Below the pieces are notes generated by a model. The model worked only from the letters and a program-made list of their open reading frames with translations. It had not been told where the DNA came from and did no database searches. This document shows positions 178 through 50,372 of a stretch of 64,000 nt of DNA, piece after piece (position 1 is the first letter of the stretch; each line of letters begins with the position of its first letter). This DNA is from a virus, in the IMG/VR virus record IMGVR_UViG_3300047089_000307, positions 94,652 through 158,651 of that record, one strand, 5' to 3'. Made by a program: the position numbers and the translations under genes.

Positions 178-950
178 CCGCCCGGCGCTGGCCCGGCTGG
201 CGAACGACCTGCACGGCGCCGGCCACGAGGTCTACGTGGTAACCCCCACCACGTCGCCAGCACCGGGCGCAGCTGCTTCCAGGTCTCGTCACTGGTGAAC
301 AGCCCCAGGAACTCGCACACGTCCCGGACCTCCTGCGGCACGCACGGCACGACGCGGGCCGCCGCTGCCTGGTAACCGGGGTACTGGGGGAGAAGATCCC
401 TGGTGAACAGCTCCATCGCGTCAATGGCGTCCTGCCGCTTGTCCTTGTCACCGGGACGGCTTTCCAGGGACCGGGTGACCTGCCGCCACGTCAGCGCCTC
501 GCGGGGCAGCCGCTCGCCAGTCTCGGCATCCATGAGCTGGCCGTCGAACGGGAAGATCCCGGTGCGCAGCAGCTCGTGCCGGGATTCCCCCATGTCGTCA
601 CGCAGCTGGTCGGCGCTGTAGTCGATGCTGTCGTCAGTCCTGGACCAGTCCGGGTGGCAGAGCGGGCGCACCACGATGACGCTGGCCCGGCCGTGGTCAG
701 AGGTCTCGTAGTCGTAGGAAGCGCACTCGGCAACGTCGTGCTCCAGCCAGTTCGCCTCGTGCCGGATGGTCAGCCAGTCCATGGACGGGAACGGCTTGCC
801 CTCACCGGGCCCGTACCGCTCGTCCAGCCACCGCAGGTACGCGTGGCCGCTGTGGCAGCGGCCCTCGGCGAACTTCCAGTTAACCCGCTCGTCTTCTGGC
901 GTGACCCCGGTCAGGGCGTACCCAAGGTGCTTCTGGATGCGGATTCCCAT
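1..950 (-). CDS. Unknown protein, 3' end lost or rearranged
   Basis: An ATG at 950 opens a frame that stays open to the left edge (about 316 codons). The convincing part is 245-950, about 235 residues with a balanced composition, several Trp and His residues and typical high-GC codon use; no family recognised. The last ~80 codons run antisense to two plus-strand reading frames, so the natural C-terminus was probably lost at the ~244 junction. The gene diverges from the HAD gene at 1021, and the space between carries a plus-strand promoter-like site. Confidence 0.55.
   Translation of the reverse strand, partial: MGIRIQKHLGYALTGVTPEDERVNWKFAEGRCHSGHAYLRWLDERYGPGEGKPFPSMDWLTIRHEANWLEHDVAECASYDYETSDHGRASVIVVRPLCHPDWSRTDDSIDYSADQLRDDMGESRHELLRTGIFPFDGQLMDAETGERLPREALTWRQVTRSLESRPGDKDKRQDAIDAMELFTRDLLPQYPGYQAAAARVVPCVPQEVRDVCEFLGLFTSDETWKQLRPVLATWWGLPRRPRGRRRAGRSPAGPAPGGHEAAFRSRCRVRRPQAMAMASSSLRPCPSVQALMSRSSSCHEILAVLSRDAFQAAYPG
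174..244 (+). pseudogene. Fragment of a HAD-family gene
   Basis: Bases 179-244 repeat 1060-1125 of the intact HAD gene with only four differences. The catalytic DLDGT region is missing and similarity stops abruptly at about 244, where sequence belonging to a minus-strand gene begins. Reading from the ATG at 174 gives another frame that stops at 242. I infer a deletion or rearrangement remnant; an assembly misjoin is the alternative. Confidence 0.5.
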
Positions 951-989
951 CAGTGGCCCTTCCGGGAGGCAACGGCAAGAACAGCTACC

Positions 990-1012
990 TTTATCATACT
1001 GTAAAAGACGAG
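990..1012 (+). promoter_or_regulatory. Promoter-like site, CATACT type
   Basis: CATACT at 995-1000 is followed at once by GTAAAAGAC and then by a GAGGAG ribosome site before the GTG at 1021. It matches the window-wide pattern [T/C/G]ATACT plus a purine-rich AAGAGA-like downstream part. I see no TTGACA-type -35. Confidence 0.5.
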
Positions 1013-1020
1013 GAGTTCCT

Positions 1021-1365
1021 GTGACTGCATACGGCTTTGACCTGGACGGGACGCTCGATCGCCCGGCGCTGGCCCGGCTGGCGAATGACCTGCACGACGT
1101 CGGCCATGAGGTCTACGTGGTAACCGGCGGCCTGGGCGATACAGGCGAGTGGACGCTGCCGGCCCGTGAGCGCACGCTGGCCGCGCTCGGCGTGCGCTAC
1201 ACGGCGATCATGCGCTGCATTGACCCGGACATCCGGCAGCTGGGCCTCCTGAAAGGCGAGCAGTGCGCCCGGCTGGGCATCGCCGTCATGGTCGATGACG
1301 ACCGGCTCTACCTGGACGGCGTCGCCGCCGCGGCCAGTGACGTCGTGCGGCTGCTGGTGCTGTGA
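1021..1365 (+). CDS. HAD-like hydrolase, short form
   Basis: 114 residues starting at GTG, with GAGGAG a few bases upstream. The N-terminal D-L-D-G-T (residues 7-11) is the HAD nucleophile motif, and a VDDDR near residue 92 resembles the acidic motif IV. At 114 residues it lacks a cap domain, so it is a minimal HAD or a polynucleotide-phosphatase-like protein; substrate unknown. Its stop overlaps the next start (TGATG). A fragment of a second copy lies at 174-244, and distant HAD relatives are at 3947 and 52341. Confidence 0.75.
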   Translation: MTAYGFDLDGTLDRPALARLANDLHDVGHEVYVVTGGLGDTGEWTLPARERTLAALGVRYTAIMRCIDPDIRQLGLLKGEQCARLGIAVMVDDDRLYLDGVAAAASDVVRLLVL

Positions 1366-1700
1366 TGAGCGGCGTGAGCGGCGCGGACCTGTACCGGGAA
1401 CTGGTCGGGCAGGCGTACGAGCGCCGCAGCGACTGGCGCAATGACCACCGGAGCCTGTACTGGGTGATGAGCCATGAGTGTCGCAATGTCATCATGCAAC
1501 TGTGCTCACCGCAGGGATGGCCGGCCCTGGAGCTGTCGCGCACCGAGGGCCTGCGGGACATGCTGTTCGGCTACCCGGTCATCGCCGGGCCTGCCTACGG
1601 CCCGCCGCTGCTGACTGACGACCCGCTGGCAGCGGCGCAACGCGTGCAGCTGATCGCGCGGAACCTGACGCTAGCGGAACTGGCTAGTGAGCCGGGCTAG
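1365..1700 (+). CDS. Unknown small protein with LTLAEL tail
   Basis: 111 residues from the ATG that overlaps the preceding stop; a GTG one codon earlier is also possible. No known domain. The C-terminal stretch IARNLTLAELAS, followed by EPG, is a looser version of the ARxLTLxEMM tail found on the tandem family at 12.2-15.6 kb, so I place it as an outlying tail-bearing protein. Confidence 0.7.
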   Translation: MSGVSGADLYRELVGQAYERRSDWRNDHRSLYWVMSHECRNVIMQLCSPQGWPALELSRTEGLRDMLFGYPVIAGPAYGPPLLTDDPLAAAQRVQLIARNLTLAELASEPG

Positions 1701-2576: not shown

Positions 2577-3607
2577 CCACGATCTCCTTCACCGCCTCCC
2601 GCTTTAACTTCGCCCCGCCGCCGTCCGTCGTGGCCAGCGTGCTGTCCGCCCGGGTGCCGCTCGCGGACCGCTACGTCACCGGGGCCTGCCAGGGCGGGGA
2701 CGCCTGGATCGGCGCCTGGCTGTACGTGACCAGGCCGGCCGCTGAGCACGTCGTGGTGGTCCCGTGTAACCGCCGTCAGGTCGACCCCTGGTGGACGCGC
2801 ACCGGGAGCCTGCCGCTGGTGACCGTCATCGACATGCCCCCGGGCACCAACTACGCCGACCGGAACCGGGAGCTAGTGGCCAGGGCTGACCAGGTCTTCG
2901 GCTTCCCGGCATTCCCGGAGGAGGACCCGCGGTCGCAGCGCAGCGGCACCTGGCAGACGATCCGGATGGCCCGCGACGCCGGGAAGCTGAGGCTGTGGCA
3001 GTGCGTCACGCCGCCGTACCGGGGGCAGGTTGAGGCCCTGACGGGGGAGCCGGACCTCGCGGCGCCGGCCACCGTCTCCTATCGCGAGGAGCTCGCGCGG
3101 TTCATGACCGCGGAGGGCGAGGAGAAGATCCGGATGCTCTTCGCGGAGCCGGATGAGCACCAGCCGTGGTGCGGAGACGCGTCGCTGAGCCGGCCGGACG
3201 ATGAGTGCACTTGCGACGTCACCCCGGAGATGCAGTACGCGCAGCGCGGCCAGTCCGAGGCGGAGCAGGCCCGGCGCGGGGATGACGGACTCACGGACGA
3301 GGAGCGCGCTGAGTACGCCCGGCGCTTCTGGGCGGTGGCCAATGCCCCAGTCTCGCCCGAGATGCGGGCAGCCACGCGCCGTCGCCTTGACTCCGCGGCC
3401 ATCGGCGAGTCCCGGCACCAGGCCCGGCGCGGGGATGACGTCGAGGCATGGCTGAGGGGCTGGCGGGACCTGCTCGGCGGCGACCCCTGGCACGCCGTGA
3501 ACGGGCTGCTGGATGATTACCGCAAGCGGGCCGATCTCGGGATTGCCCTCGATGACGATAGCGAAGCAGGGCACGCCGCTGGGCACGGAGCCGGCGAGGA
3601 TGAATGA
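2573..3607 (+). CDS. SLOG/DUF2493-like nucleotide-binding protein with long charged tail
   Basis: 344 residues; the start is the GTG overlapping the previous stop. Residues 1-140 look like a SLOG (YspA/DUF2493-type Rossmann) domain: the Gly-rich loop TGACQGGDA near residues 36-44 and the later ADQVFGFP followed by SGTWQTIRMARDAGK, where the acidic/aliphatic strand and the helix near the ligand are expected. Such domains bind nucleotide-derived ligands. Residues ~170-344 are low-complexity and highly charged with a CxCD motif, and contain two similar 'QARRGDD' segments (about residues 236 and 289). Confidence 0.7.
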   Translation: MTTISFTASRFNFAPPPSVVASVLSARVPLADRYVTGACQGGDAWIGAWLYVTRPAAEHVVVVPCNRRQVDPWWTRTGSLPLVTVIDMPPGTNYADRNRELVARADQVFGFPAFPEEDPRSQRSGTWQTIRMARDAGKLRLWQCVTPPYRGQVEALTGEPDLAAPATVSYREELARFMTAEGEEKIRMLFAEPDEHQPWCGDASLSRPDDECTCDVTPEMQYAQRGQSEAEQARRGDDGLTDEERAEYARRFWAVANAPVSPEMRAATRRRLDSAAIGESRHQARRGDDVEAWLRGWRDLLGGDPWHAVNGLLDDYRKRADLGIALDDDSEAGHAAGHGAGEDE

Positions 3608-3950
3608 CCCGTCGCAGGTGAGCTACCAGGACCTGTGGGCGTACCTGGTCGATGAGTACTACCGGTTCCGGCTCCTGGACGCCCCTCGCCGCGGGCCCTG
3701 GGCCTGTCACCTGTGGTGGGTAATGCACCCGCGCTGGCTGCACCCGTGCCTGAACGCAGAAGTAATGAACATGAGCTACCGCATGTACCAGGAACAGCGC
3801 AAGAGCCCGGAATGGCTGCTGACCGGCATCCCGGTCCTGGAAGGCATGAAGTTCGGGGAGCCGAAGCTGACGCGGGACCCGGCCAGCCTCAGCAAGGGGC
3901 CGTACCTGCACGCCCGGCCGCTGACGCTGCGGGAGCTGATGAGCCGGTGA
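3600..3950 (+). CDS. Unknown protein with ARPLTLRELMSR tail
   Basis: 116 residues; the ATG at 3600 overlaps the previous gene by 8 bases. It is Trp/Tyr-rich (YLVDEYYRFRLL and WWVMHPRWLHP in the first half). No known domain. It ends in HARPLTLRELMSR, a clear copy of the C-terminal tail of the 12.2-15.6 kb family, although the rest of the protein is not obviously similar. Confidence 0.75.
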   Translation: MNDPSQVSYQDLWAYLVDEYYRFRLLDAPRRGPWACHLWWVMHPRWLHPCLNAEVMNMSYRMYQEQRKSPEWLLTGIPVLEGMKFGEPKLTRDPASLSKGPYLHARPLTLRELMSR

Positions 3951-11219: not shown

Positions 11220-11801
11220 GTGACTGAGGAAGCGCCGCGGGCCGGGCCTGCCCTGACCGCGGCACAGCAGGACCTGCTGCGCCGGCTAACCCAGGGCCCG
11301 CAGCCGGCGGTAACCTGCGTGCTCGGCGTCGACCCCGGCCCTGTCACGGGCATCGCGTGGCTGTGCTCCGGGCCGGGGCAGCGTCCCCTGGTCTTCCAGT
11401 GCAATGCCGCGGGCGCGTACCCGCTGGCGAGCTGGCTGCTGGAGGCCAGCGAGGGGCCGGCCCGGATCATCTGCGCCGGCGAGCGGTTCATCACCGGGCG
11501 CGGCGCCGGGGCCAGGGGCGCGAACGCTACCGCCACCCGGCAGGTGATCAGCGACCTGGACCGGCTCGCCAGGTGGCACTGGCGCAGCGCAGCAGAAGTG
11601 AAACCCTGGGCAACCGACGCCCGGCTGAAGGCGGCAGGGCTGCTGGAGCAGTGCCACGGCATGCCGCACGCTGCCGACGCGTGCAGGCATGCTTTGTTTG
11701 CCATGATCCACGACTGTGGCATGCCCGATCCGCTCTCGCGCAAGGCGGGCACGCTCTATGCCCGGTCACTGTCGCTGGAAGAACTGGAGGGCTTCTCATG
11801 A
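11220..11801 (+). CDS. RuvC-like Holliday junction resolvase
   Basis: 193 residues from GTG. The RNase H fold residues are visible: Asp in LGVDPGPVTGIAW (residue 38), Glu in ICAGERF (about 88) and the C-terminal Asp pair region in MPHAADACRHALF (about 153), with KPWATDARLKAAGL before it as in phage RuvC-like proteins. Expected to cut four-way or branched DNA during replication or packaging. Unusually, it ends in YARSLSLEELEGFS, a version of the tail carried by the family that begins 400 bases downstream. Confidence 0.85.
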   Translation: MTEEAPRAGPALTAAQQDLLRRLTQGPQPAVTCVLGVDPGPVTGIAWLCSGPGQRPLVFQCNAAGAYPLASWLLEASEGPARIICAGERFITGRGAGARGANATATRQVISDLDRLARWHWRSAAEVKPWATDARLKAAGLLEQCHGMPHAADACRHALFAMIHDCGMPDPLSRKAGTLYARSLSLEELEGFS

Positions 11802-11989
11802 TGCCGGCTGACGGGGAGAGCAGCTTCCGGATGGTGCTGACCTCGAATTCCTGCCCGCGCTGCGGCGCCATCACCTACCTCCGGCTGTCCGCCTCCGCAG
11901 AGGGAAGCGTCGCCGTGGCCGGCGAGCAGCCACCGCCCGTCGACAACCGGGCGCAGCACGCGGACTGGCACGAGCGGACGGGCACGTGA
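11798..11989 (+). CDS. Small zinc-binding protein
   Basis: 63 residues; ATG in a TCATGA overlap. CPRCGAITYLRL is half of a zinc ribbon. Its ending WHERTGT recurs as WRERTGT in the next gene. Confidence 0.65.
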   Translation: MMPADGESSFRMVLTSNSCPRCGAITYLRLSASAEGSVAVAGEQPPPVDNRAQHADWHERTGT

Positions 11990-12222
11990 GCGCCTGGCGG
12001 CTAGTGGCGGGCCTGGCCGGCGTGGCGGCGGCACTCGCGGCCGTGATCCTGGCAGCCCAGGCGGTCGCCAGGGGATCAGTGCTGGAGATCGCGTTCCTGC
12101 CCGCGCTCATCGGGCTGCCCGCCAGCGTCGCGGTGATCATCCTTGAGCCGTCCTCCCCGGGCGAGGATGATGATGACGACGAGGATGACGAGCCGGGCTG
12201 GCGCGAGCGGACGGGCACGTGA
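11986..12222 (+). CDS. Small membrane protein
   Basis: 78 residues from GTG. Two hydrophobic helices (about 5-28 and 36-53), then an acidic loop (a run of Asp/Glu) and the terminal WRERTGT shared with the previous gene. Likely two-pass inner membrane protein; function unknown. Confidence 0.7.
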   Translation: MSAWRLVAGLAGVAAALAAVILAAQAVARGSVLEIAFLPALIGLPASVAVIILEPSSPGEDDDDDEDDEPGWRERTGT

Positions 12223-12581
12223 GCAGGCACCGGGGCCGGATAGGGTTCCGGGGCGGCTGGGCGCTGACGTACGAGGAAGACCGCTGGTGGCCGTCCTGGG
12301 AGAGTGCTTCCCGGCTGCACTGCGTCACCTGGACGCTGGACGACGTGGTCATGACGCAGGCGCAGTACGAGCGGGCCGCCGCCGTCCGGGACGACGCTCC
12401 GTACTGGCTGACCGCCATGGCAGCCGGGCTTGCGATGACGGCCGGGCTCGCGATGGTCAGCGGGATCTTGCTCAGCGAGGCTGAGGCGATGGCCATCCGG
12501 CGCGGCGCTCACCCGCTGACGGTGCTGCTGCCCCGGACCTGGGCCCGGCCGCTGACCCTGGCGGAGATGATGGGTGCATGA
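12219..12581 (+). CDS. Tail-family protein (member 1 of the tandem array)
   Basis: 120 residues. Begins the tandem array: N-terminal FRGGWALTYE, two V-M-T-x-A-Q / L-S-E-A-E-A-M type segments, then the shared block 'RRGAHPLTVLLPRTWARPLTLAEMM'-like ending (residues ~96-118). Overlaps the next member by four bases (GCATGAGC). Confidence 0.8.
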   Translation: MSRHRGRIGFRGGWALTYEEDRWWPSWESASRLHCVTWTLDDVVMTQAQYERAAAVRDDAPYWLTAMAAGLAMTAGLAMVSGILLSEAEAMAIRRGAHPLTVLLPRTWARPLTLAEMMGA

Positions 12582-12889
12582 GCGTGCTGGCGCAGCGAGA
12601 CGGCTGGACGCTGGAGACAGGCCCGCCTTCCCCTCCTGACTTCCCCTGTGCTGCGTTCATCCTGCGCGAGCTGGCCGTGACGCAGGAGCAGTGCGCCGCC
12701 ATCTTGTACCGCTGCGGCCGGACCGGGTCCTGGTTCCGGGTCCCCGTCCCCGGCGGATGGGTCATGACGCTGGAGCTGGACCGGGCGGAGGCGCACGCGA
12801 TCGGGCTGCTGGGACGCGACCCGCTGACGGTGCTGGCTCCCCCGCTGCACGCCCGGTCACTGACCCTGAGGGAGATGATGAGCGCATGA
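12578..12889 (+). CDS. Tail-family protein (array member 2)
   Basis: 103 residues. Starts MSVLAQRDGWTLETG, identical over the first 12 residues to member 3. Two internal half-repeats (LAVTQEQCAAI and LDRAEAHAIGL) precede PLTVLAPPLHARSLTLREMM. Translationally coupled on both sides. Confidence 0.82.
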   Translation: MSVLAQRDGWTLETGPPSPPDFPCAAFILRELAVTQEQCAAILYRCGRTGSWFRVPVPGGWVMTLELDRAEAHAIGLLGRDPLTVLAPPLHARSLTLREMMSA

Positions 12890-13206
12890 GCGTGCTGGCG
12901 CAGCGAGACGGCTGGACGCTGAGCGCGTGGCGCTGGCCCCGGAGCGGCAGCCTGCTCCGGCACGTGTACCAGCTCCGGCACGTGTACCAGCTGGACGGGC
13001 TGACGGTAACGGACGCGCAGCTCCAGGCCATGACCGCCCGGTCATCGCACATGTGGTGGGTAAGCCCTGAGTGCCTGATCATGCACGGCGTCAGCCTCAC
13101 CTGGGAGCAAGCCCGCGCAATCCAGGACGGGGCAAATCCGGTAACCGTGCTGACCCCTCGCTTCCGGGCCCGGTCACTGACCCTGAGGGAGATGATGGGC
13201 GCATGA
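12886..13206 (+). CDS. Tail-family protein (array member 3)
   Basis: 106 residues. Same N-terminus as member 2. A perfect tandem duplication of 18 bases gives RHVYQLRHVYQL at residues 22-33, a sign of recent slippage. Half-repeats LTVTDAQLQAM and VSLTWEQARAI; ends in FRARSLTLREMMGA. Confidence 0.82.
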   Translation: MSVLAQRDGWTLSAWRWPRSGSLLRHVYQLRHVYQLDGLTVTDAQLQAMTARSSHMWWVSPECLIMHGVSLTWEQARAIQDGANPVTVLTPRFRARSLTLREMMGA

Positions 13207-13586
13207 GCAGGATAGTCATGAAACGACGGCTGCGGTGCGGCGCGGTGCTGACCGCGCAGGAGCACTGGGAGCACTCGATGGGCGTCATGTCGCCAGGGCA
13301 CCGGGAGGTACTCTTCACGCTGCATGACCTCCCGGTGACGCCCGGAGACGCCGAGCGGCTGATGTCGGCGCGACCGCGGCCATGGCGTCGGGGTGCAGGC
13401 AGCTGGATTACCAGAACCTTCATGCACCAGTACGGCGCGAACGTCACCCCCGTCTTGTCCCTGTCCCGGATTCAGGTCACGCCGCAGGAGGCGGACCGCA
13501 TGCTGTCCGGGGAGCACCCGATGGCGGTGCTGCTGCCGCCGCTGTACGCGCGGTCGCTGACCCTGGCGGAGATGACGGGCGCATGA
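13203..13586 (+). CDS. Tail-family protein (array member 4)
   Basis: 127 residues. The N-terminus is divergent and basic, but the half-repeats LPVTPGDAERLM and IQVTPQEADRML and the end PLYARSLTLAEMTGA are clear. Confidence 0.8.
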   Translation: MSRIVMKRRLRCGAVLTAQEHWEHSMGVMSPGHREVLFTLHDLPVTPGDAERLMSARPRPWRRGAGSWITRTFMHQYGANVTPVLSLSRIQVTPQEADRMLSGEHPMAVLLPPLYARSLTLAEMTGA

Positions 13587-13912
13587 CGTGCAGCGAGATG
13601 CTCGCCGCCCGGGACGGCTGGACGCTGGACGCGGCGTGGGAGGGCGCCTTCCCGTACGGGACCGTGTCCTCCCCGGTTCGCTGCACGCTGTCCGGGCTGC
13701 GGGTGACGAGGAGCCAGGCCCGCGCCATCACCACGGGCCGGGCCGTGCTCACCGTTGAGCACGAGTACCCGTTCGGCAGCTTCTTCCTCCTGCACCTGGA
13801 GGTCACGCCGGCCGAGGCTCACGCCATCGCGGGCGGCAGGCACCCGCTGAACGTGCTGATGCCGCCGCTGTACGCGCGGTCGCTGACCCTGGCGGAGATG
13901 ACGGGCACGTGA
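13583..13912 (+). CDS. Tail-family protein (array member 5)
   Basis: 109 residues: ARDGWTLDAA start, LRVTRSQARAI and LEVTPAEAHAI half-repeats, and PLYARSLTLAEMTGT. The last 15 codons are nearly identical to member 4, consistent with recent duplication. Confidence 0.82.
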   Translation: MTCSEMLAARDGWTLDAAWEGAFPYGTVSSPVRCTLSGLRVTRSQARAITTGRAVLTVEHEYPFGSFFLLHLEVTPAEAHAIAGGRHPLNVLMPPLYARSLTLAEMTGT

Positions 13913-14355
13913 CCCGCGTCACCGGCAGGAACGGGATCATGTACCTCGGCACGGGGCCGGGCGCGCTGCTCGGCCAGCCCGTGGCTTATATCCCGGACTG
14001 GTCCATTGACTTCGACGTCCTGCCGGCAGCACTGACCGGGGTGACGCTCGCCGAGCGGGACGGCTGGACGCTGCGGGCCGGCACCGCCCCGTACGGTCAC
14101 TTCGGCGATACGCGCCCGCTGTACGTGCTGGAGAACCTGATGGTGACGGCCGGGCAGGCGAGCCAGGTCATGCGGCACCGGCCGGGGGACCTGCCCTGGC
14201 ACCTGGGCCACGGCAACGGCCCGCTGCGGCCGATGAAGATGGTGCTGACCACGGAGGAGACGGTGCGCGTCTGGCGCGGGGCCGACCCGCTGGCCATGCT
14301 GGCCCCGCCGCTGCGCGCCCGCGCGCTGACCCTGGAGGAGATGATGAGGGAATGA
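13909..14355 (+). CDS. Tail-family protein (array member 6)
   Basis: 148 residues, the longest member: about 45 extra N-terminal residues precede the usual RDGWTLRAG. Half-repeats LMVTAGQASQVM and LTTEETVRVW; ends LRARALTLEEMMRE. Confidence 0.8.
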   Translation: MTRVTGRNGIMYLGTGPGALLGQPVAYIPDWSIDFDVLPAALTGVTLAERDGWTLRAGTAPYGHFGDTRPLYVLENLMVTAGQASQVMRHRPGDLPWHLGHGNGPLRPMKMVLTTEETVRVWRGADPLAMLAPPLRARALTLEEMMRE

Positions 14356-14765
14356 GCTGGGACTGGCCGGGCTGGCGACTGGCCCGCACCTTCCACGGCA
14401 GCCGGAACGGGATGGCCCGGCGCGATAACTGGACGCTGGAGACCTGGCAGTACGAGGCGCCGCTGACCTGTTACTCCGAGTACCTCATCCCGCGCGTGAC
14501 CACCGACGTGCGGTACGTGCTGTCCGGCCTGACGGTGACGCCCCGCGAGGCGGATGCCATCACCGGCCGTCGCCTGGGGCACTTCGCGCCGCCGCGGGCC
14601 AGCGTGCACTACGGCTACGGCCCTGGCCCGGTCCTGGTGATGGACGACATTGAGCTGACCATGGACGAGGCGGCGGCCATCGTAGACGGCACCGACCCGG
14701 TGGCCGCGCTGGCGCCGCGGATCAGGGCACGGCCGCTGAGCCTTCAGGAGATGATGGGCGCATGA
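14352..14765 (+). CDS. Tail-family protein (array member 7)
   Basis: 137 residues. RRDNWTLETW near the start, LTVTPREADAI and LTMDEAAAI half-repeats, ending IRARPLSLQEMMGA. The tail wording changes here from LTL to LSLQ, a subtype shared by the next two members. Confidence 0.8.
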   Translation: MSWDWPGWRLARTFHGSRNGMARRDNWTLETWQYEAPLTCYSEYLIPRVTTDVRYVLSGLTVTPREADAITGRRLGHFAPPRASVHYGYGPGPVLVMDDIELTMDEAAAIVDGTDPVAALAPRIRARPLSLQEMMGA

Positions 14766-15013
14766 GCGAGGGCTACTCCTGGCGGGACCTGACGGGCTTC
14801 CTGGTGTCCGTCCACCGTGACCAGGCCGCCCGGCAAGAAGCCGGGGACCGCCAGGTCGCGGCACTGCGGGCGTCGGTCTGGCAGCTCCAGCGCCAGGCCG
14901 GCGTGATGACCCTGAATGAGGTGCGGGCCCGGCAGGACAGGGCGTCCCTGCCGCCCGGCACGATCGTGCTGCGCGCCCGGCCGCTGAGCCTTCAGGAGAT
15001 GCTAGGCACGTGA
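14762..15013 (+). CDS. Tail-bearing protein with a different body (array member 8)
   Basis: 83 residues. The body is a single helical, possibly coiled-coil segment (residues 15-55) without the half-repeats, yet the end LRARPLSLQEMLGT is the same as in member 9. This separates the tail from the fold. Confidence 0.78.
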   Translation: MSEGYSWRDLTGFLVSVHRDQAARQEAGDRQVAALRASVWQLQRQAGVMTLNEVRARQDRASLPPGTIVLRARPLSLQEMLGT

Positions 15014-15044
15014 CGCAGGACAACGGAAAGCGAGTGCGCACGCC

Positions 15045-15419
15045 ATGCGGCCACCAGGAATTACCTACGATGCCCCCCGGCCGCAGCCGTGGACGCTGAC
15101 CCAGGTCCGGGACTACCCGGGCGGGCCGCGGCGGTGGCAGCTGGCCCTGGAGGTTACCGGCGGCGAGCAGGCCAGGGCGGTCCGGCTAGCGCGGGGCGGC
15201 AGCGGGGTGATGCGGACCCGGGACGACGGCGTCATGCGGTACCCGGAGGCTTACCTGTTCGAGTTCATCGACGTCACCGCGGAGGAGATGCTCGCCATCG
15301 CGGGCGGGGCCAGCCCGCTGGACGTGCTGCTGCGCGGCCCGGACGGGGCGCGGCAGTGGCTGTGGCCGCTGGTGCTGCGCGCCCGGCCGCTGAGCCTTCA
15401 GGAGATGCTGGGCACGTGA
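15045..15419 (+). CDS. Tail-family protein (array member 9)
   Basis: 124 residues; GGAAAGCGAG stands upstream of the ATG and this is the only array member with a gap before it. PQPWTLTQV at the start, a strong half-repeat IDVTAEEMLAI, then a longer linker and LRARPLSLQEMLGT. Confidence 0.8.
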   Translation: MRPPGITYDAPRPQPWTLTQVRDYPGGPRRWQLALEVTGGEQARAVRLARGGSGVMRTRDDGVMRYPEAYLFEFIDVTAEEMLAIAGGASPLDVLLRGPDGARQWLWPLVLRARPLSLQEMLGT

Positions 15420-15589
15420 GCCACGGGGACTACGTGCAGCTCCTGGCGAGGCTGTACCTGGCCGGGATCATCACCGCAGCCAAGGCCCGCTGCCTGCATG
15501 AGGCCGCTTTCACGCGATGGCGGGCAACGACCGGGGGGCCGCTGCCGCTGGCAGCCCGGCCACTGACCCTGGCCGAGATGCTGGGCTAG
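15416..15589 (+). CDS. Tail-bearing small protein (array member 10)
   Basis: 57 residues from GTG. A short helical body (YVQLLARLYLAGIITAAKAR) lacking the half-repeats, ending AARPLTLAEMLG. Last gene of the array; its stop overlaps the stop of a possible minus-strand gene. Confidence 0.72.
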   Translation: MSHGDYVQLLARLYLAGIITAAKARCLHEAAFTRWRATTGGPLPLAARPLTLAEMLG

Positions 15590-18089: not shown

Positions 18090-18508
18090 AGACCCCAAGA
18101 TACCGGTAACAGGGCCCGGCACCGAGTGAAACGGCGCCGGGCTCCCGTGCCTGCCTAGCCAGGCCCGTCCTAGCCGAGCCATTCCTGCCGGGGCGGGCCG
18201 CGCCCAGCCCTGCCTAGCCTTGCGACGCCTGCCGAGCCTTGCCCAGCCGCGCCACGCCAAGCCCTGCCTGCCCAGCCGAGCCTAGCCCAGCCGCACCACG
18301 CCTAGCCATGCCTGCCACGCCAGACCTTGCCCTGCCTAGCCATGCCTGCCGGACCTCGCCTCACCTAGCCAAGCCATGCCGCGCCTGCCCTGCCGTGCCG
18401 CGCCGGGGCCTGCCGAGCCTAGCCATGCCTGCCTAGCCGAGCCCTGCCGAGCCTAGCCATGCCATGCCTGCCAGTCCTGGCCTTGCGTCACCCCGCCTTG
18501 CCCCGCCG

Positions 18509-18552
18509 TGTCCATCCCTTTTACGCCGGATGCTGCTGCTCCCGTGCCTGCC
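18509..18552 (-). repeat. 42-bp unit, copy 1
   Basis: On the minus strand it reads GCAGCAGCATCCGGCGTAAA then AGGGATGGACACGGC, nearly the 3' end of the gene at 19736 including its stop region. Copies 1 and 2 are about 157 bases apart. Confidence 0.8.
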
Positions 18553-18665
18553 CGGCCACGCCAGACCTCGCCGCGCCTAACCTCACCTGCCCCGCCATGC
18601 CAGACCTTGCCGCGCCTAACCTCACCTGCCGCGCCAGACCTCGCCATGCCCTGCCGTGCCTAGCC

Positions 18666-18709
18666 GTGTCCATCCCTTTGCGCCGGATGCTGCTGCTCCC
18701 GTGCCTGCC
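18666..18709 (-). repeat. 42-bp unit, copy 2
   Basis: Same unit with CGCAAAGGG in place of CGTAAAGGG (minus-strand reading). Flanks are pentamer repeat. Confidence 0.8.
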
Positions 18710-19058
18710 GCGCCGCACCTGGCCATGGCTAACCTCACCGCGGCTGCCGAGCCGATCCCAGCCGTGCCTAGCCGTGCCGGCCCTGACCTCGCCTGCCCTG
18801 CCGCGCCGCGCCTGACCCAGCCAGGCCACGCCATGCCTGCCGCGCCGACGCGCGCCACCCCGTGCCAAGCCACGCCCTGCCTGCCGGTCCCCGCCTAGCC
18901 CCGCCTGGCCATGCCAGCCCGAGCCATGCCTGCCTTGCCAGACCTTGCCTCGCCGTGCCTTGCCGTGCCTGCCCGGCCTCGCCACATCGCGCCATGCCTC
19001 TCCTTGGCCAGCCTCGCCATGCCTGCCCCGCCTGGCCTCGCCGGACCCTGCCCTGCCG

Positions 19059-19101
19059 CGTCCATCCCTTTACGCCGGATGCTGCTGCTCCCGTCCCTGC
19101 C
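19059..19101 (-). repeat. 42-bp unit, copy 3
   Basis: Same unit; about 393 bases from copy 2, with one substitution near its end. Confidence 0.8.
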
Positions 19102-19283
19102 GGTCCCGGCCTAGCCTCACCGAGCCTGACCTGCCTGACCGCGCCATGACGCACCGAGCCTTACCGGTCCCTGCCTGCCATGCCACGCCACCCCGTGCCA
19201 AGCCCTACCTGCCCTGCCGCGCCGCGCCCTGCCGTGCCGTGCCTCGCCTGCCGCGCCTGGCCCTGCCGCACCGCACCATGCCA

Positions 19284-19326
19284 CGTCCATCCCTTTACGC
19301 CGGATGCTGCTGCTCCCGTGCCGGCC
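19284..19326 (-). repeat. 42-bp unit, copy 4
   Basis: Same unit; about 225 bases from copy 3. Confidence 0.8.
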
Positions 19327-19512
19327 AGACCTGCCGAGCCATGTCGTTCCGCTCCGCGCCATGCCCTGCCTGCCAAGCCACGCCCCACCCCGCCGAACCG
19401 AGCCATGCCTGCCAGGCCGTGCCGAGCCGCGCCTAGCCACGCCACGCCATGCCTGCCGGGCCATGACGCACCGCGCCTTGCCGCGCCACACCGTGCCTGC
19501 CCCGCCTTGCCA

Positions 19513-19555
19513 AGTCCATCCCTTTGCGCCGGATGCTGCTGCTCCCGTGCCTGCC
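19513..19555 (-). repeat. 42-bp unit, copy 5
   Basis: Same unit; about 229 bases from copy 4 and 211 from the related gene end at 19724-19755, which has CAGCCGG where the free copies have CGCCGG or ACGCCGG. Confidence 0.8.
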
Positions 19556-19735
19556 CCGCCTAGCCAAGCCTTGCCACGCCGCGCCTTGCCTGCCGGGCCG
19601 GACCCCGCCGGGCCGGACCATGCCGAGCCGCACCATGCCGTGCCTGCCGGACCGGACCACGCCACGCCGCACCATGCCGTGCCTCGCCTGCCGCACCAAG
19701 CCTCGCCGGACCCCGCCTTGCCATGTCCATCCCTT

Positions 19736-20203
19736 TCAGCCGGATGCTGCTGCCTTCTTCACCTGCGCCTCGTGCTCGGCGATGACCTCGGCAAGCTCCT
19801 GCCAGAACTCGGGGTAGTCGCGGTACCGCTGGGCCATGGAGCGGACCTCGCGGCGGATGCGCAGCAGGATCAGGCCCTGCTCCTGCGTCGTGAGCGAGGT
19901 GACGCTGGAGTACGTGCCGGGCGGCGAGGGGATGCCGATCATCCGGTCGGCCACGTACTTGCGCATCATGACCGCGCGCTGGCCGCCGGACGCGACCTCG
20001 CGGACGACGGCCACCCGGTAGCTGCGGATCAGGCCGCGGGCCTCCTCCAGGCGGCGCTGCGCCGCGGCGATGGCGTCATCCCAGGTGAACAGCCCGTGCA
20101 GCGCGCTGTCCTCCGGCCGTGCTGCCGCCACGACCTCATCGGCGTGCAGCTTGCCGCGGGAGTCCTCCAGCCCCTTCAGGGCCTTCAGTACCTCATCCCT
20201 CAC
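19736..20203 (-). CDS. Conserved phage hypothetical protein
   Basis: 155 residues from a GTG overlapping the upstream gene's stop. The pattern HADEVVAAARPEDSALHGLFTWDDAIAAAQ-like at residues ~20-50, followed by a helix EEARGLIRSYRVAVV, is one I know from many siphophage early regions, usually next to a partner like the gene at 20200. Function unassigned; a role in recombination or DNA metabolism is only suggested by such neighbourhoods. Its last codons are the source of the repeated 42-bp units. Confidence 0.75.
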   Translation of the reverse strand: MRDEVLKALKGLEDSRGKLHADEVVAAARPEDSALHGLFTWDDAIAAAQRRLEEARGLIRSYRVAVVREVASGGQRAVMMRKYVADRMIGIPSPPGTYSSVTSLTTQEQGLILLRIRREVRSMAQRYRDYPEFWQELAEVIAEHEAQVKKAAASG

Positions 20204-20892
20204 AGGACTATCTCCTTGACCTCGGCGTCGTCCGGCACCCGGAACGTGCCGTAGGAGCCAGTATTGGATTCCTTGCTGGCCGGGCGCCACTCGCCGATGC
20301 CCGCGAAGCCGGCGGCGTCCACCAGCGCGATGACGGACTCCAGCGTCAGCGAGTTGCGCACCCAGACCACCTCCAGCACCGCCGACCACGGCCAGTACTC
20401 CGGCCGGAAGCGGATGTCGGCGACGCCGGTCTCGTTGCGCGCGTAGTCCTGGCGCATCACCGCGGTGGCCGGGACGAGCGCCGACTCCTCGCCGGTCCAC
20501 TCCCCCCAGACGGGGACCAGCAGCGTGCGGTTCGCCTGGTCGGTGCCCGGCTCGCCGTTGACGAAGATCATCCGGCGCAGGTCCGTCATGGGCAGCTTGG
20601 AGCCCTTGAAGAACCGGGCCGCGTCCACGATGGCGGCCTTGAAGCCGACCGAGGGGAACGCGGGGGCGCCGCCGGGGAGCAGGTGCTGGGCGTCGCGGAA
20701 GTTCTGCTCCGGGTCCTTCGGCTGGCGCTCGACGGGCTTGCCCATCTGCCGGTCGAGCATGATCTGCTGGGCCTTGGCGCTGAACTTGTTGGTGATGAGC
20801 GGGGTGAGGCCCTGGACGGGCACCCGGATCATGGAGCGGCCGAGCCGCTGGAGCGAGATCGCGCCCGTGGTGGTGGCCTTCGCTGGGGGCAT
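20200..20892 (-). CDS. Conserved phage protein of unknown function
   Basis: 230 residues; GAAAGGGA lies upstream of the ATG. The run VPVQGLTPLITNKFSAKAQ, then MLDRQMGKPVERQ, a FRDAQHLLPGG segment and FPSVGFKAAIVDAARFF match a phage family that regularly precedes the 155-residue partner. The fold looks like a beta-rich ferredoxin-like or RAMP-like protein, but I cannot assign activity. Confidence 0.75.
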   Translation of the reverse strand: MPPAKATTTGAISLQRLGRSMIRVPVQGLTPLITNKFSAKAQQIMLDRQMGKPVERQPKDPEQNFRDAQHLLPGGAPAFPSVGFKAAIVDAARFFKGSKLPMTDLRRMIFVNGEPGTDQANRTLLVPVWGEWTGEESALVPATAVMRQDYARNETGVADIRFRPEYWPWSAVLEVVWVRNSLTLESVIALVDAAGFAGIGEWRPASKESNTGSYGTFRVPDDAEVKEIVL

Positions 20893-21177: not shown

Positions 21178-21854
21178 GCTACCAGGGCAGCAACCGCAAT
21201 GACGAGAAGGCACCGGATGAGGTGACGGGCACGCTGCTGGTCACGGTCACCGTATACGGCGGGACGCTGGCGGACGCGGCGACCGCGCTGTCCAGTTACC
21301 GGGGCAAGGGCTGGGGCCGGGAGATGACCGACCTGCTAAATGGCGGGGAGTTCGAGGTCATCGCCGCTGACGTCGCTAAGGACGTCACGGCCGGCGACGC
21401 TGATCCTGACGTCATGAGCGAGCAGGAGCTGCGCGAGGAGATCACCCGGGTCGTCCTCGCGCAGCGAGCAGACTGCGCGGAGCACCCGATGCCGTTCCCG
21501 CGGCCGTCGTGCTGGGCGTGCGCCCGCAACGGGGCCTTCCACCGGGCGGCGCTGCTCGCGGCGGGCCGCTGGCCGGCCGCTGACCCGGTGACGTACGTGC
21601 TGCCCGCTCAGCCGGGCCGCTGGCCGGCCGCTGACCCGGAAGGAGCTGATGACGAGACGGCCGCGCCAGCCAGGCACAAGGCACGCGTGCGCAGCACCGG
21701 CCTGCGCTATGACGGCGTGCGGCTGTGGCGCTGGGCCTGCCCGCACTGGGACCAGGGCCGGAACCGGAACTGCCGCGGCGGCGACTACGGGTCCTGGGCC
21801 ATGGCCGTCCGTGACGCCGTCCGGCACGCCGGGTCAGGCGGCACGGCCTGGTGA
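21174..21854 (+). CDS. Unknown protein with internal duplication
   Basis: 226 residues from GTG. A short alpha/beta N-terminal domain, a C-x-H / CWAC motif near 105-120, and GRWPAADP twice (about residues 130 and 148) from a recent 45-base duplication. The C-terminus has basic and Trp-rich segments with CPHW and CRGG. No family recognised. Confidence 0.68.
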   Translation: MSYQGSNRNDEKAPDEVTGTLLVTVTVYGGTLADAATALSSYRGKGWGREMTDLLNGGEFEVIAADVAKDVTAGDADPDVMSEQELREEITRVVLAQRADCAEHPMPFPRPSCWACARNGAFHRAALLAAGRWPAADPVTYVLPAQPGRWPAADPEGADDETAAPARHKARVRSTGLRYDGVRLWRWACPHWDQGRNRNCRGGDYGSWAMAVRDAVRHAGSGGTAW

Positions 21855-22180
21855 GTAATCGCCACGGGCTGGCCCGGGACGGCTGGGGGCTGCCCGTCGC
21901 CGGGGACGGCTGGACGCTGACCGTGGAGCCGCTGCGCGGCCGTGACAAGTACGTCCGGTTCGCGCTGCGCGGGCCGGTCGCAAACGTGACGCCCGGCGAG
22001 CGGGCCGCGCTGCGGGTGTTCCAGGCACCGGGCGGCTGGCCGGCGATAGGCGTGGACGGCGGCATCGAGGTGAGCTGGGAAGAGGCGCAGCTGATCCGGG
22101 GCGGACGCGACCCGCGGCACGTGCTGTGGCCGCCGCTGCGGGCCCGGGCGCTGACGCTGGCGGAGATGATGAGCCGGTGA
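21851..22180 (+). CDS. Tail-family protein (second cluster, member 1)
   Basis: 109 residues from GTG. DGWTLTVEP (residue ~19), half-repeats VTPGERAALRVF and VSWEEAQLI, then PLRARALTLAEMMSR. Seven kilobases from the main array but of the same architecture. Confidence 0.82.
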   Translation: MSNRHGLARDGWGLPVAGDGWTLTVEPLRGRDKYVRFALRGPVANVTPGERAALRVFQAPGGWPAIGVDGGIEVSWEEAQLIRGGRDPRHVLWPPLRARALTLAEMMSR

Positions 22181-22500
22181 ACCGCCTGCTGCTCCCGGGC
22201 CCGCGGCCGTCAGGAAGCTACCCGGTGCCGGAGGAGTACGCGCAGCGACTGCTGCGCGCGGCCGGGTGCACCGGGGCGATGCTCCTGGGCTGGCGCGACG
22301 GGCTAGGGCCGCGCTGCCGGATGTGCGGCCGGGTCGCCGTCATCCCCACGGCCGCGCTCTGGGAGCGCATCGCGGGCTGGCGCGTCCCTGACCCCGCGTA
22401 CAGCATGCGCGAGCACGCCCGCTGGGCGCTGGCCGACCCGGAAGCCAGCCGCGCCGTCATGGCCGGGGGCGCGGTCCTGCTGGAGATGATGGCGAGATGA
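22177..22500 (+). CDS. Tail-related protein with Cys pair
   Basis: 107 residues from GTG. Different body with CRMCGR near the middle; ends in GGAVLLEMMAR, which keeps only the LEMM part of the tail. Coupled on both sides to tail-family members. Confidence 0.7.
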   Translation: MNRLLLPGPRPSGSYPVPEEYAQRLLRAAGCTGAMLLGWRDGLGPRCRMCGRVAVIPTAALWERIAGWRVPDPAYSMREHARWALADPEASRAVMAGGAVLLEMMAR

Positions 22501-22823
22501 CCGTGACGCGGGCGCGCGACGGCTGGACGCTGCACATCGAGAAGAGCCCGCCCGGCAGCCGTTTCGTGAACCGGACCTGGCTGGACGGGCTGGCCGTCAC
22601 CCGGGAGCAGGCGCATGCCATCATCACCGCGGGGGGCGCGGAGCGCACGTGGACGCTCGCGGGATACCACCAGGAGTGGCCGGCCCATGTGCTCATCCTG
22701 GACAGGGTCGGCGTGACCCGGGAGGAGTACCTGGCGATCCTGGGCGGGCGCGATCCGGTGAGCGTCCTCCTGCCGCTGCTGCGGGCCCGCGCGCTAACGC
22801 TGGCGGAGATGATGGCGCAGTGA
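22497..22823 (+). CDS. Tail-family protein (second cluster, member 3)
   Basis: 108 residues. ARDGWTLHIE start, LAVTREQAHAI and VGVTREEYLAI half-repeats, and LRARALTLAEMMAQ: the cleanest example of the full architecture. Confidence 0.82.
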   Translation: MTVTRARDGWTLHIEKSPPGSRFVNRTWLDGLAVTREQAHAIITAGGAERTWTLAGYHQEWPAHVLILDRVGVTREEYLAILGGRDPVSVLLPLLRARALTLAEMMAQ

Positions 22824-25330: not shown

Positions 25331-26737
25331 TCAGTAGGACCGACCGAGAATGGCGATTATTCCCGGCTCGTCGTCGGCGTCCGGCAGGCCGCCGTCCGGA
25401 CGGAACAGGCACCGTACGGAGACCCCGGAAGCGTTCGCCTTCGCTTCGCCGTCAAGTCCGACGCGGTCCCAGGGCACCCGCGCCCAACCAGACGCCGACG
25501 CCTCGATGGCCTCGTCCACCGTGGACACGTCGACGGTCTTCGCCTCGCGGTAGGCCAACGCCTCGTCGTACAGCGACTGCTGATCTTTCTCCAATGCGGC
25601 GACCACCGTCGACATCACATCGTCGAATACGACGGGCTCCTTCGTGCCACTGACTCGCCGCACCACCGTCACCCGGCCTTCGGCGATATCGCGGGGACCG
25701 ACCTCCACCCGAATCGGATAGCCCTTCAACTCGGCATCAATCGCCCGGCGCCCGTATGGCGTGTCGACCCGGTCGTCCAAGCTGACCCGGACGCCCGCAT
25801 CACGCAGTGCGTCCCGCAGCTTGTGCGCGGTGGCGACGACGCCTTCACCGGCCGTCACGGCCACCACGAGCGCTTGGATCGGGGCGAGGCGGGGTGGCAC
25901 CCGCAGACCGTTGTCGTCGCCGTGGCACATGATCATGCCGCCGACCATCCGCGTCGAGCTGCCCCATGACGTCGTGTTGCAGAACTCCTGCCCGCCGGAC
26001 GCGCTGGTGAACTTGATGTTGAAGGCGCGCGCGAAGTTCTCGGTGAACTCGTGCACGGTACCCATCTGCAGCGCCTTCCCGTCGCGCATCATGCCCTCGA
26101 ACGTGTAGGTGCAGGTCGCCCCGGCGAAGCGTTCCTTCACCGTCTTCCGGCCGAGAACGACTGGCATCGCGAGTACGTTGACCATGTAGTCCCGGTACAC
26201 CTCGTGCAGGATCCGGCGCGCGAACGCCCGGGAGTCGGCGAAGTCCACATGGGCGGTGTGGCCCTCTTGCCAGAGGAACTCAGACGTTCTCAGGAAGATC
26301 CGCGGCCGCATCTCCCAACGCACCACGTTCGCCCACTGGTTGAGTAGCAGCGGCAGGTCGCGATAGCTCGAAATCCACTTGGCCATCATTTCGCCGAACA
26401 TCGTTTCGCTCGTGGGGCGCACGACCACGGGTTCGGGCAGTTCCTTGCCGCCGGCGTGTGTCACGAGGGTGAGCTCCGGGCTGAAGCCCTCCACGTGTTC
26501 CGCCTCGCGTGCGAAGTAGTTCTCCGGAACAAACAGCGGGAAGTACACGTTTTGTGCTCCGGTCGCCTTGATCCGCGCCTCGACCTCGGCCACCATCCGC
26601 TCCCAGATCGCATAGCCGGCCGGGCGTACCACCATGGTCCCGCGCACCGGCCCGTTGTCGGCCAGTTCGGCCTTCGCGATCACATCCTGGTACCAGCGGG
26701 GAAAGTCTTCGCCTTGAGGAGTAAGTACTTGCGCCAT
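25331..26737 (-). CDS. proS: Prolyl-tRNA synthetase
   Basis: 468 residues from ATG, the length of the short (archaeal/type 3) ProRS lacking the bacterial editing insertion. Class II motifs are clear: motif 1 region GPVRGTMVVRPAGYAIWE (residues ~30-47), motif 2 around RWEMRPRIFLRTSEFLWQEG (~133-152), the proline pocket TFEGMMRDGKALQMGTVHEF, and motif 3 in the GGMIMCHGDDNGLRVPP region (near 265-280), followed by the anticodon-binding domain. It charges tRNA-Pro. G+C and codon use are lower than in the flanks, and it lies against the gene string. Such extra synthetases can replace a host enzyme or confer drug insensitivity; here that is only inference. Confidence 0.95.
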   Translation of the reverse strand: MAQVLTPQGEDFPRWYQDVIAKAELADNGPVRGTMVVRPAGYAIWERMVAEVEARIKATGAQNVYFPLFVPENYFAREAEHVEGFSPELTLVTHAGGKELPEPVVVRPTSETMFGEMMAKWISSYRDLPLLLNQWANVVRWEMRPRIFLRTSEFLWQEGHTAHVDFADSRAFARRILHEVYRDYMVNVLAMPVVLGRKTVKERFAGATCTYTFEGMMRDGKALQMGTVHEFTENFARAFNIKFTSASGGQEFCNTTSWGSSTRMVGGMIMCHGDDNGLRVPPRLAPIQALVVAVTAGEGVVATAHKLRDALRDAGVRVSLDDRVDTPYGRRAIDAELKGYPIRVEVGPRDIAEGRVTVVRRVSGTKEPVVFDDVMSTVVAALEKDQQSLYDEALAYREAKTVDVSTVDEAIEASASGWARVPWDRVGLDGEAKANASGVSVRCLFRPDGGLPDADDEPGIIAILGRSY

Positions 26738-27169: not shown

Positions 27170-27187
27170 TGAGCGGAGCCACCACAT
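27170..27187 (+). CDS. Possible 5-codon coupling ORF before the replicase
   Basis: GTG-AGC-GGA-GCC-ACC-ACA-TGA follows a GGGGAGG ribosome site, and its stop overlaps the ATG of the replicase. It may couple or attenuate replicase translation, or be chance. Confidence 0.25.
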
Positions 27188-39821: not shown

Positions 39822-40198
39822 CAGGCTTCTCCTTCCCTGCGCTCCGGCCGCGGTGCGCCGCAGTTACCGCAGGTGCCGTCTTCCACGGGGCTGCGGTAGC
39901 CGCACGCGTGGCCTTCCTCCAGGCGGTTGCGGCATTGCCAGGCGAACCTGGCCTTGTCGAGGAGCTGGTCCAGGGTGTCTGACTCGTAGTCGTCTGCGAC
40001 GTTCCGCAGCCGGCCCAGGATGCCGCCCGGCTCCCATGGCCCAGGCCCTGCTGAGGCCACGGCCACGTCCGTCCATTCGGAGGTGTCGTGGTTCCCGTAG
40101 TTGGCGGCGTCATCAAGCGCGAATTCGACGGCGCTGAGGATTCCTGCCTCATCGGTTCCGTCCGGGGCCTCGACTGTGACCAGGATTGCCTTCTTCAT
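39821..40198 (-). CDS. Unknown protein with C-terminal zinc ribbon
   Basis: 125 residues from the ATG at 40198, eight bases after GGGAGG; an in-frame GTG at 40207 overlaps that site. N-terminal strand-helix (KAILVTVEAPDGTDEAGILSA) and a C-terminal CGYRS...CGNCG. Confidence 0.7.
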   Translation of the reverse strand: MKKAILVTVEAPDGTDEAGILSAVEFALDDAANYGNHDTSEWTDVAVASAGPGPWEPGGILGRLRNVADDYESDTLDQLLDKARFAWQCRNRLEEGHACGYRSPVEDGTCGNCGAPRPERREGEA

Positions 40199-50266: not shown

Positions 50267-50372
50267 GGGAGTATGCGGTATGGTTTGGCCAGGCAAGGTC
50301 AGGTGAGCCCTGGCGGGGCCAGGCAGGCGTGGGACTCCACCTGGTCACAGCACGTCTGTGGCCAGGTGGTGG
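50266..50372 (+). other. Possible short plus-strand RNA with GGCAN repeats and hairpin
   Basis: After AGTATGCGG (50269-50277) comes G-rich pentamer-like sequence and then a hairpin (CCACCTGG/CCAGGTGG, 50336-50368) that spans the stop of the minus-strand GMC oxidoreductase gene. Same layout as 46486-46605. Confidence 0.35.

Follow-up and report, generated by a model that had tools for sequence, protein, structure and literature searches.

The window, that is the whole 64,000-base stretch of phage DNA analysed here, carries ten consecutive small genes at 12219-15589, all of which end in the array version of one short tail, ARxL(T/S)LxEM (Table 1). All ten open reading frames described in an earlier note on this DNA were found, with the lengths it gave (57-148 aa). 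The ATGA or GTGA overlaps of four bases by which it had joined the genes are present at eight of the nine junctions; genes 8 and 9 are the exception and do not overlap, since gene 9 starts at the ATG at 15045 and is not in frame with the GTG at 15010. The array domain, consisting of an RDGWTL segment and two half-repeats, was recognised in genes 1-7 and 9, in a degenerate form in some, and genes 8 and 10 have the tail as the sole feature in common with the other array genes. As the earlier note had proposed, the structure of one member was predicted: the AlphaFold2 model of a5 (pLDDT 82) has two sheet-helix half repeats, and its fold gave weak, scattered matches such as kinase lobes and topoisomerase (best Foldseek E 0.08 among viral structures and 0.28 in the PDB; best VIA Z 4.5). 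The domain had no significant match among Pfam and PHROGs profiles, which agrees with the absence of a named family that the note had reported. No match to virion profiles was obtained for it with HHalign, and therefore a virion-protein origin of the array domain is not claimed.

Table 1. Tailed genes in the window, and b2 from the second cluster (positions counted from the first base of the window).
Gene	Position	Strand	Length (aa)	Features	Tail
g144	1365..1700	+		major-capsid A/P-domain-like fragment, tail	ARNLTLAELASEPG
g148b	3600..3950	+		diverged g144 paralogue (33-39%), tail	ARPLTLRELMSR
g169	11220..11801	+		RuvC-like nuclease (phrog_1981), tail added past normal C-terminus	ARSLSLEELEGFS
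a1	12219..12581	+	120	array domain, tail	ARPLTLAEMMGA
a2	12578..12889	+	103	array domain, tail	ARSLTLREMMSA
a3	12886..13206	+	106	array domain, tail	ARSLTLREMMGA
a4	13203..13586	+	127	array domain, tail	ARSLTLAEMTGA
a5	13583..13912	+	109	array domain, tail	
a6	13909..14355	+	148	tail-tube-like N-terminal 37 aa, then array domain, tail	
a7	14352..14765	+	137	array domain, tail	ARPLSLQEMMGA
a8	14762..15013	+	83	portal-like segment (aa 35-68), tail; without array domain	
a9	15045..15419	+	124	divergent array domain, tail	ARPLSLQEMLGT
a10	15416..15589	+	57	head without assignment, tail	ARPLTLAEMLG
b1 (second cluster)	21851..22180	+	109	array domain, tail	ARALTLAEMMSR
b2 (second cluster)	22177..22500	+	107	ends GGAVLLEMMAR; outside the 17 tailed genes	
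b3 (second cluster)	22497..22823	+	108	array domain, tail	ARALTLAEMMAQ

The description of the locus as a tandem family with a common tail holds as far as the tail on the ten genes is concerned, but it is too narrow, since two of the ten lie outside the domain family and seven tailed genes are found elsewhere. A six-frame scan of the phage record (158,651 bases) with a tail HMM recovered 17 copies at six places (E <= 8e-5; next-best match E 0.98), every one of them C-terminal, 2-5 residues ahead of the stop, in a gene on the + strand. The tail has about ten residues, and over the 17 proteins the consensus of the C-terminal motif is (DPx8-11)LxARxL(T/S)LxE(M/L)x2-5-COOH. Besides the array genes, the carriers are a RuvC-like nuclease, two further array-domain proteins from a second cluster, which bring the tailed copies of this lineage-specific domain to ten in the whole record, and four small proteins outside the array that are without the domain (g028, g071, g144 and g148b). 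The ending of b2, in the same second cluster, is possibly a degenerate tail. Two other metagenome contigs hold identical DNA (100%), so that an assembly artefact is unlikely.

As judged from codon comparisons, the tail is maintained across the 17 proteins by selection on the protein sequence, in line with the earlier claim of conservation with synonymous change. The seven conserved codons of the tail gave a pS of 0.33 and a pN of 0.064 (pN/pS about 0.2), and in five dispersed tailed genes codons for the same residue are identical in 58% of comparisons, where 53% is expected from genome codon usage. Chance or mere DNA duplication as the origin of the tail was rejected on these values and on the near-saturated synonymous sites of the dispersed copies. 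Duplication, which the earlier note had raised as a challenge to its claim, does play a part within the array: the array tails taken alone are more alike (77% identical codons vs 50% expected), and therefore recent duplication or conversion also happened there. The bodies of the tailed proteins diverge freely, with a poorly calibrated dN/dS of about 0.6-1.3 in most pairs.

The enzyme among the carriers, g169, matches phrog_1981 (E 9e-11), a family annotated as of unknown function, and had no match in Pfam; we read it as a RuvC-like nuclease from its GVDPG..E..HAADACRH pattern. RuvC-like homologues in five relatives stop where the g169 tail starts, and therefore the tail is an addition to a pre-existing protein. 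Ahead of it stands DPL, similar to the DP ahead of the array tails. Neither tail nor array domain was found in twelve large relatives gathered by a tail-tube protein scan, three of which have virion fragments that are untailed (portal in G011 and G012, tube in G019). The tail and array HMMs had no match over 2.87 Mb of related loci, nor had the array domain in 30 related records, a search run without a positive control. Beyond this record, the tail was sought by tblastn in phages and by DNA and profile-derived patterns in IMG/VR and GTDB genomes, with identical contigs of this virus and chance matches as the only yield. Among the chance matches, L014 has a different gene context, and L025 and L026 have one unrelated protein each, with the endings RVLTLNELFGV and RMLTLTELDRL. 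A PDB sequence search using the tail gave no match, and a beta-clamp-binding motif was dropped as its candidate identity, there being no Q in the tail to fit the consensus.

At the level of sequence, several heads look like pieces of virion proteins that the phage itself encodes, namely two regions of the capsid and the N-terminus of the tail tube, and more weakly the portal and the tape measure. In BLASTP against the own genome, the capsid was matched by g028 (43% identity, E 2e-10) and g144 (32%, E 2e-7), the N-terminus of the major tail-tube protein by the N-terminal 37 aa of a6 (54% identity, E 2e-8; HHalign 96%) and the tape measure, weakly, by g071 (31%, E 5e-5; HHalign 39%). Neither g028, which covers capsid aa 9-61 (the N-terminal delta region), nor g144, which covers aa 273-354 (the A/P region; HHalign 93%), is a complete HK97-type major capsid protein, both being partial matches to a capsid of 416 aa. 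Their local similarity to a clade capsid profile is significant (E 1.2e-10 and 9.5e-6), and they were the best non-capsid matches when clade profiles were run over about 2,300 proteins. The portal likeness of a8 is weak (phrog_12 E 0.03; HHalign 50%; PF04860 E 0.04, at 13.5 bits under the Pfam gathering cut-off of 39.1), and g148b on its own has no detectable capsid likeness. In g028, g144, a8 and a6 the virion-like segments span about 30-85 residues, with no complete domain, and an AlphaFold2 model of the g144 pair reached a pLDDT of 39.5. In a blind permutation test of about 2,000 pairs the top five were all tailed proteins; at p<1e-4, virion-like heads occur in 5/17 tailed vs 0/184 untailed small proteins (hypergeometric 2.4e-6). 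HHalign P values for these heads range from 2e-10 to 3e-4, the best of 736 controls being 0.0024.

The best explanation of these observations is a protein set with a constant tail and variable heads, from one actinomycete phage lineage. Tentatively, we suggest that the tail may be a docking device and that some heads may mimic virion proteins in soluble form and serve as decoys, most likely for the immune sensors of the host. The tail would then be a short linear motif taking each carrier to one common partner, either a host factor or a phage complex, and the virion-like heads would engage any factor that binds newly made capsid, tube, portal or tape-measure protein; once captured, this factor would be recruited or removed through the tail. 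Array-domain heads, which diverge fast, could be baits for other partners. Immune systems are described that recognise the capsid, the portal, the terminase and the tail tube (PMC11364771), and the phage protein DSAD1 blocks DSR2 through competition with the tube protein (PMC11087589). The position of g144, a6 and a8 in a replication-type region, outside the virion operons, was counted in favour of decoys, with an expression timing that we infer. The fuller proposal, of an immune decoy set in which pieces of the own capsid, tube, portal and tape measure share a C-terminal handle by which captured sensors are passed on to one partner, beside a fast-evolving bait array with the same handle, seems doubtful to us. 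A tail on a nuclease fits a decoy set poorly, and against the decoy reading in general there are also the location of g028 and g071 within virion operons, the weakness of the portal and tape-measure likenesses and the lack of any in g148b alone. Moreover, decoy action is not the whole story, because ten of the 17 heads resemble nothing known.

Perhaps the fragments are instead dominant-negative poisons of capsid and tail assembly in competing related phages, the tail serving self-protection or recruitment. They match assembly regions, the capsid delta region and the tube N-terminus; the tape measure is the target of the blocker Tab, and tail assembly that of Tai (PMC10884400, PMC11364771), and g028 has terminase and portal as its immediate neighbours, Tab genes likewise lying in a terminase region (PMC10884400). 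We nevertheless regard this as unlikely, for the fragments are about as similar to the phage's own proteins as to those of relatives, so that self-poisoning would have to be avoided, most relatives have no such fragments, and the tail on the nuclease is left unexplained. That very tail, the same tag on unrelated proteins one of which is an enzyme, would suit a signal loading carriers into the particle or to an assembly site, where virion-like heads co-assemble with their parents, and g028 combines a delta-like capsid region with a place in the packaging operon. Most carriers lie outside the virion operons, however, and the tag is C-terminal, whereas the T4 signal is N-terminal and cleaved, and the probability of this reading appears low. 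Partial duplications of virion genes and of the RuvC 3' end might also have recombined in this lineage, leaving the tail as a readily copied gene end and heads with little function. The common strand, the likeness of the array copies in their 3' end DNA and the lack of the tail in all relatives examined speak for such a by-product, and the DPL of g169 would make the nuclease 3' end a possible donor. It is rather improbable given that the dispersed copies keep their residues while synonymous change is near saturation, and in view of the intact reading frames in all 17 genes, the use of both TCG and AGC for serine at one tail position, and the divergence of the fragments (31-54%), too great for recent debris. 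Least of all do we favour a DNA-level signal for ribosome binding and restart at the overlapping next gene (GGAG before ATGA) with an incidental protein tail: 11 of the 17 tails do enter a start overlapping by four bases, most with NGGAGATG upstream, but six (g028, g071, g144, a8, a10 and b3) are followed by no overlapping start on the same strand, codons vary synonymously, and A-R-x-L-T-L upstream of GGAG is conserved as protein, which makes this reading very improbable.

The same tail on at least 17 small proteins of a large soil phage is an arrangement without a named counterpart. To our knowledge, phages counter the sensors that recognise virion proteins by escape mutations or by means of a single protein. 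If the decoy reading is true, one handle would let this phage cover several exposed parts of its virion at the same time, and the partner could be sought directly with the tail as a hook. Even without decoys, a short, protein-selected C-terminal motif carried by 17 proteins, most of them unrelated and one an enzyme with tailless relatives, points to a hitherto unknown docking or targeting system, which would belong to an uncultured clade of large soil phages. The T4 capsid-targeting sequence is likewise a short tag common to several phage proteins that are otherwise unrelated, there internal ones; it sits at the N-terminus and is cleaved off by the prohead protease, whereas all 17 copies here are C-terminal and of different sequence. 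Tab and Tai, compared by description only, resemble the virion-like fragments as small phage or satellite proteins acting on virion assembly, yet they act on competing phages, and the relevant parts of the sources mention no common C-terminal tail (PMC10884400, PMC11364771). DSAD1, the DSR2 inhibitor, differs from the tailed proteins in not being known within a common-tail set; likened by its action and not by its sequence, it is, as the proposed decoys would be, a small phage protein competing with a virion protein for the sensor site (PMC11087589).

Our analysis showed that unrelated protein heads, some of them look-alikes of the phage's own virion proteins, bear one constant C-terminal motif under selection, ARxL(T/S)LxEM (the tail). 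A six-frame scan of the whole record found 17 tail copies, each ending a plus strand ORF, and the tail HMM recovered these 17 at E <= 8e-5, with all else at 0.98 and above. If g169 and the adjoining ten-gene array are taken as one site, and b1 and b3 as another, the carriers occupy six sites; the tail is carried by this genome only, plus identical contigs.

Tailed genes outside the array, and loci of untailed small proteins with portal or tail-tube segments in relatives
Feature	Location	Strand	Remark
g028	record 20100-20396	+	outside array
g071	record 51434-51763	+	outside array
g144	window 1365-1700	+	outside array
g148b	window 3600-3950	+	outside array
g169, RuvC-like	window 11220-11801	+	adjoins array
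b1	window 21851-22180	+	outside array
b3	window 22497-22823	+	outside array
L111	G011 183-815		untailed
L120	G012 867-1433		untailed
L125	G012 103688-103933		untailed
L185	G019 39921-40178		untailed

As the earlier note proposed, the tail is conserved at protein level, with pS of 0.33 and pN of 0.064 in seven conserved codons. Among five dispersed tailed genes, same-residue codons are identical in 58% of cases versus 53% expected from genome usage, indicating synonymous sites near saturation, while the higher agreement of the array copies (77% versus 50% expected) indicates recent duplication or conversion there. The bodies gave dN/dS of ~0.6-1.3 in most comparisons, poorly calibrated in this codon-biased genome. 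A restart signal was rejected as the whole reason for tail conservation, because an overlapping same-strand gene is missing after 6 of the 17 tails.

All-against-all BLASTP within the genome matched g028 to capsid residues 9-61 (43%, E 2e-10), g144, of which g148b is a paralogue, to capsid residues 273-354 (32%, E 2e-7), the N-terminal 37 residues of array protein a6 to the tail-tube protein (54%, E 2e-8) and g071 to tape measure residues 1147-1237 (31%, E 5e-5); for a8, portal was the top PHROGs and Pfam match, below threshold. In a shuffle test against picking, comparing the heads of all 17 tailed proteins, and 184 small proteins without the tail, with ten phage proteins, these were the top five of ~2,000 pairs, 5/17 tailed against 0/184 untailed proteins (hypergeometric 2.4e-6, hand-calculated). 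HHalign of clade profiles gave P values of 2e-10 (g028-capsid), 2.6e-7 (g144-capsid), 3e-9 (a6-tube), 3.2e-4 (g071-tape measure) and 1.6e-4 (a8-portal), the best among 736 control comparisons being 0.0024. At the level of sequence, both capsid resemblances and that of a6 to the tube are firm, that of a8 to portal is likely and that of g071 to tape measure possible.

Twelve large related records were examined out of a tail-tube protein scan that returned 134 related IMG/VR loci. One, G018, was included via the tail-tube protein alone, its capsid gene not being found; in the other eleven this gene is single-copy and its product 46-92% identical to that of the present phage. Tail and array domain are absent from all twelve. 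In G011 and G012, a 188-210-aa protein includes portal residues 225-267 (42-64% identity), and another, of 81-92 aa, begins with 18 portal-like residues; in G019, a tail-tube segment lies within an 85-aa protein. These untailed proteins indicate that small proteins with virion fragments recur across the clade and the tail does not, a looser parallel. Large in-frame, intein-like insertions were also seen in relatives' terminase and portal genes (L181, G001 record 79113-81836 and 83086-86037; portal genes of G006 and G021), that of the G001 terminase adjoining a GKN Walker-A-like site; they are absent from the present phage's portal and terminase.

In five relatives the RuvC-like homologue stops either at (P/K)DPL or a few residues further on; compared with these, only the present phage's protein carries the extension ...LYARSLSLEELEGFS. 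The RuvC-like gene adjoins the polymerase gene in G015, and in the present phage the array and b cluster lie between the two. Since most carriers have a DP ~14 residues before the tail, resembling the DPL in which members of the RuvC-like family natively end, the 3' end of this putative nuclease gene may, speculatively, be the ancestral donor of the tail.

All ten array ORFs are present (window 12219-15589). The ATGA/GTGA junctions previously described hold for eight of nine, as 4-base overlaps, genes 8 and 9 being separated by 31 bases. The half-repeat domain, made up of a WTL segment, two V-T-x-x-E/Q-A half-repeats and a G-x-x-P-L-x-V-L motif, is common to genes 1-7 and 9, and genes 8 and 10 have just the tail in common with the rest. 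The domain indeed matches no named family in Pfam or PHROGs, neither giving a significant hit. Its AlphaFold2 model, from ten array-domain sequences, was good (pLDDT 82), with two strand-helix half-repeats and the tail as a short helix at the end; searches with Foldseek and VIA brought up no convincing relative. Two adjacent genes just upstream (window 11798-11989 and 11986-12222) share a different C-terminal end, W(H/R)ERTGT, which is mostly a ~30-nt DNA repeat extending over the start of the following gene. In window 18144-19712, ~1.5 kb of quasi-repetitive GCC-rich DNA (units resembling GCCTAGCCATGCCTGCC, with periods of 15-44) contains no convincing gene.

The 158,651-b IMG/VR virus record, whose bases 94652-158651 form the window, is that of a tailed phage, encoding portal, maturation protease, HK97-type capsid protein, tape measure and major tail protein; genes outside the window were called by a simple coding-potential script. 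Its G+C of 69% and DUF397 genes suggest an actinomycete host. Three DUF397-like genes are scattered (L013:11033-11320, L013:13188-13406 and g039, record 27486-27659), and the terminase-portal spot is occupied by such genes in G001 and by tailed g028 here. The window also encodes a primase/helicase-like N-terminal part fused to a family A DNA polymerase (27186-31874, 1562 aa), a class II aminoacyl-tRNA synthetase-like protein with core and anticodon-binding domains (25331-26683, minus strand) and a GMC-type FAD oxidoreductase (50345-51820, minus strand); no tRNA genes were found within it.

Perhaps the tail docks to a single partner, and the virion-like heads would compete for binders of nascent virion proteins; we propose this decoy reading tentatively. 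Bacterial sensors that detect major capsid proteins, portal/terminase and tail tube have been described (PMC11364771), and a known phage inhibitor competes with the tube protein for DSR2 (PMC11087589). The anatomy of the tailed proteins fits equally an interference of virion-like fragments with assembly, which we consider unlikely and for which Tab is the comparison case (PMC10884400). It fits cargo targeting by the tail equally well, an improbable reading too, and we would also be surprised if the tailed proteins were a by-product. To our knowledge, no known kind of system attaches a single C-terminal tail to a putative enzyme, to an array domain of its own and to pieces of virion proteins; the newness lies in this architecture, apart from the proposed function.
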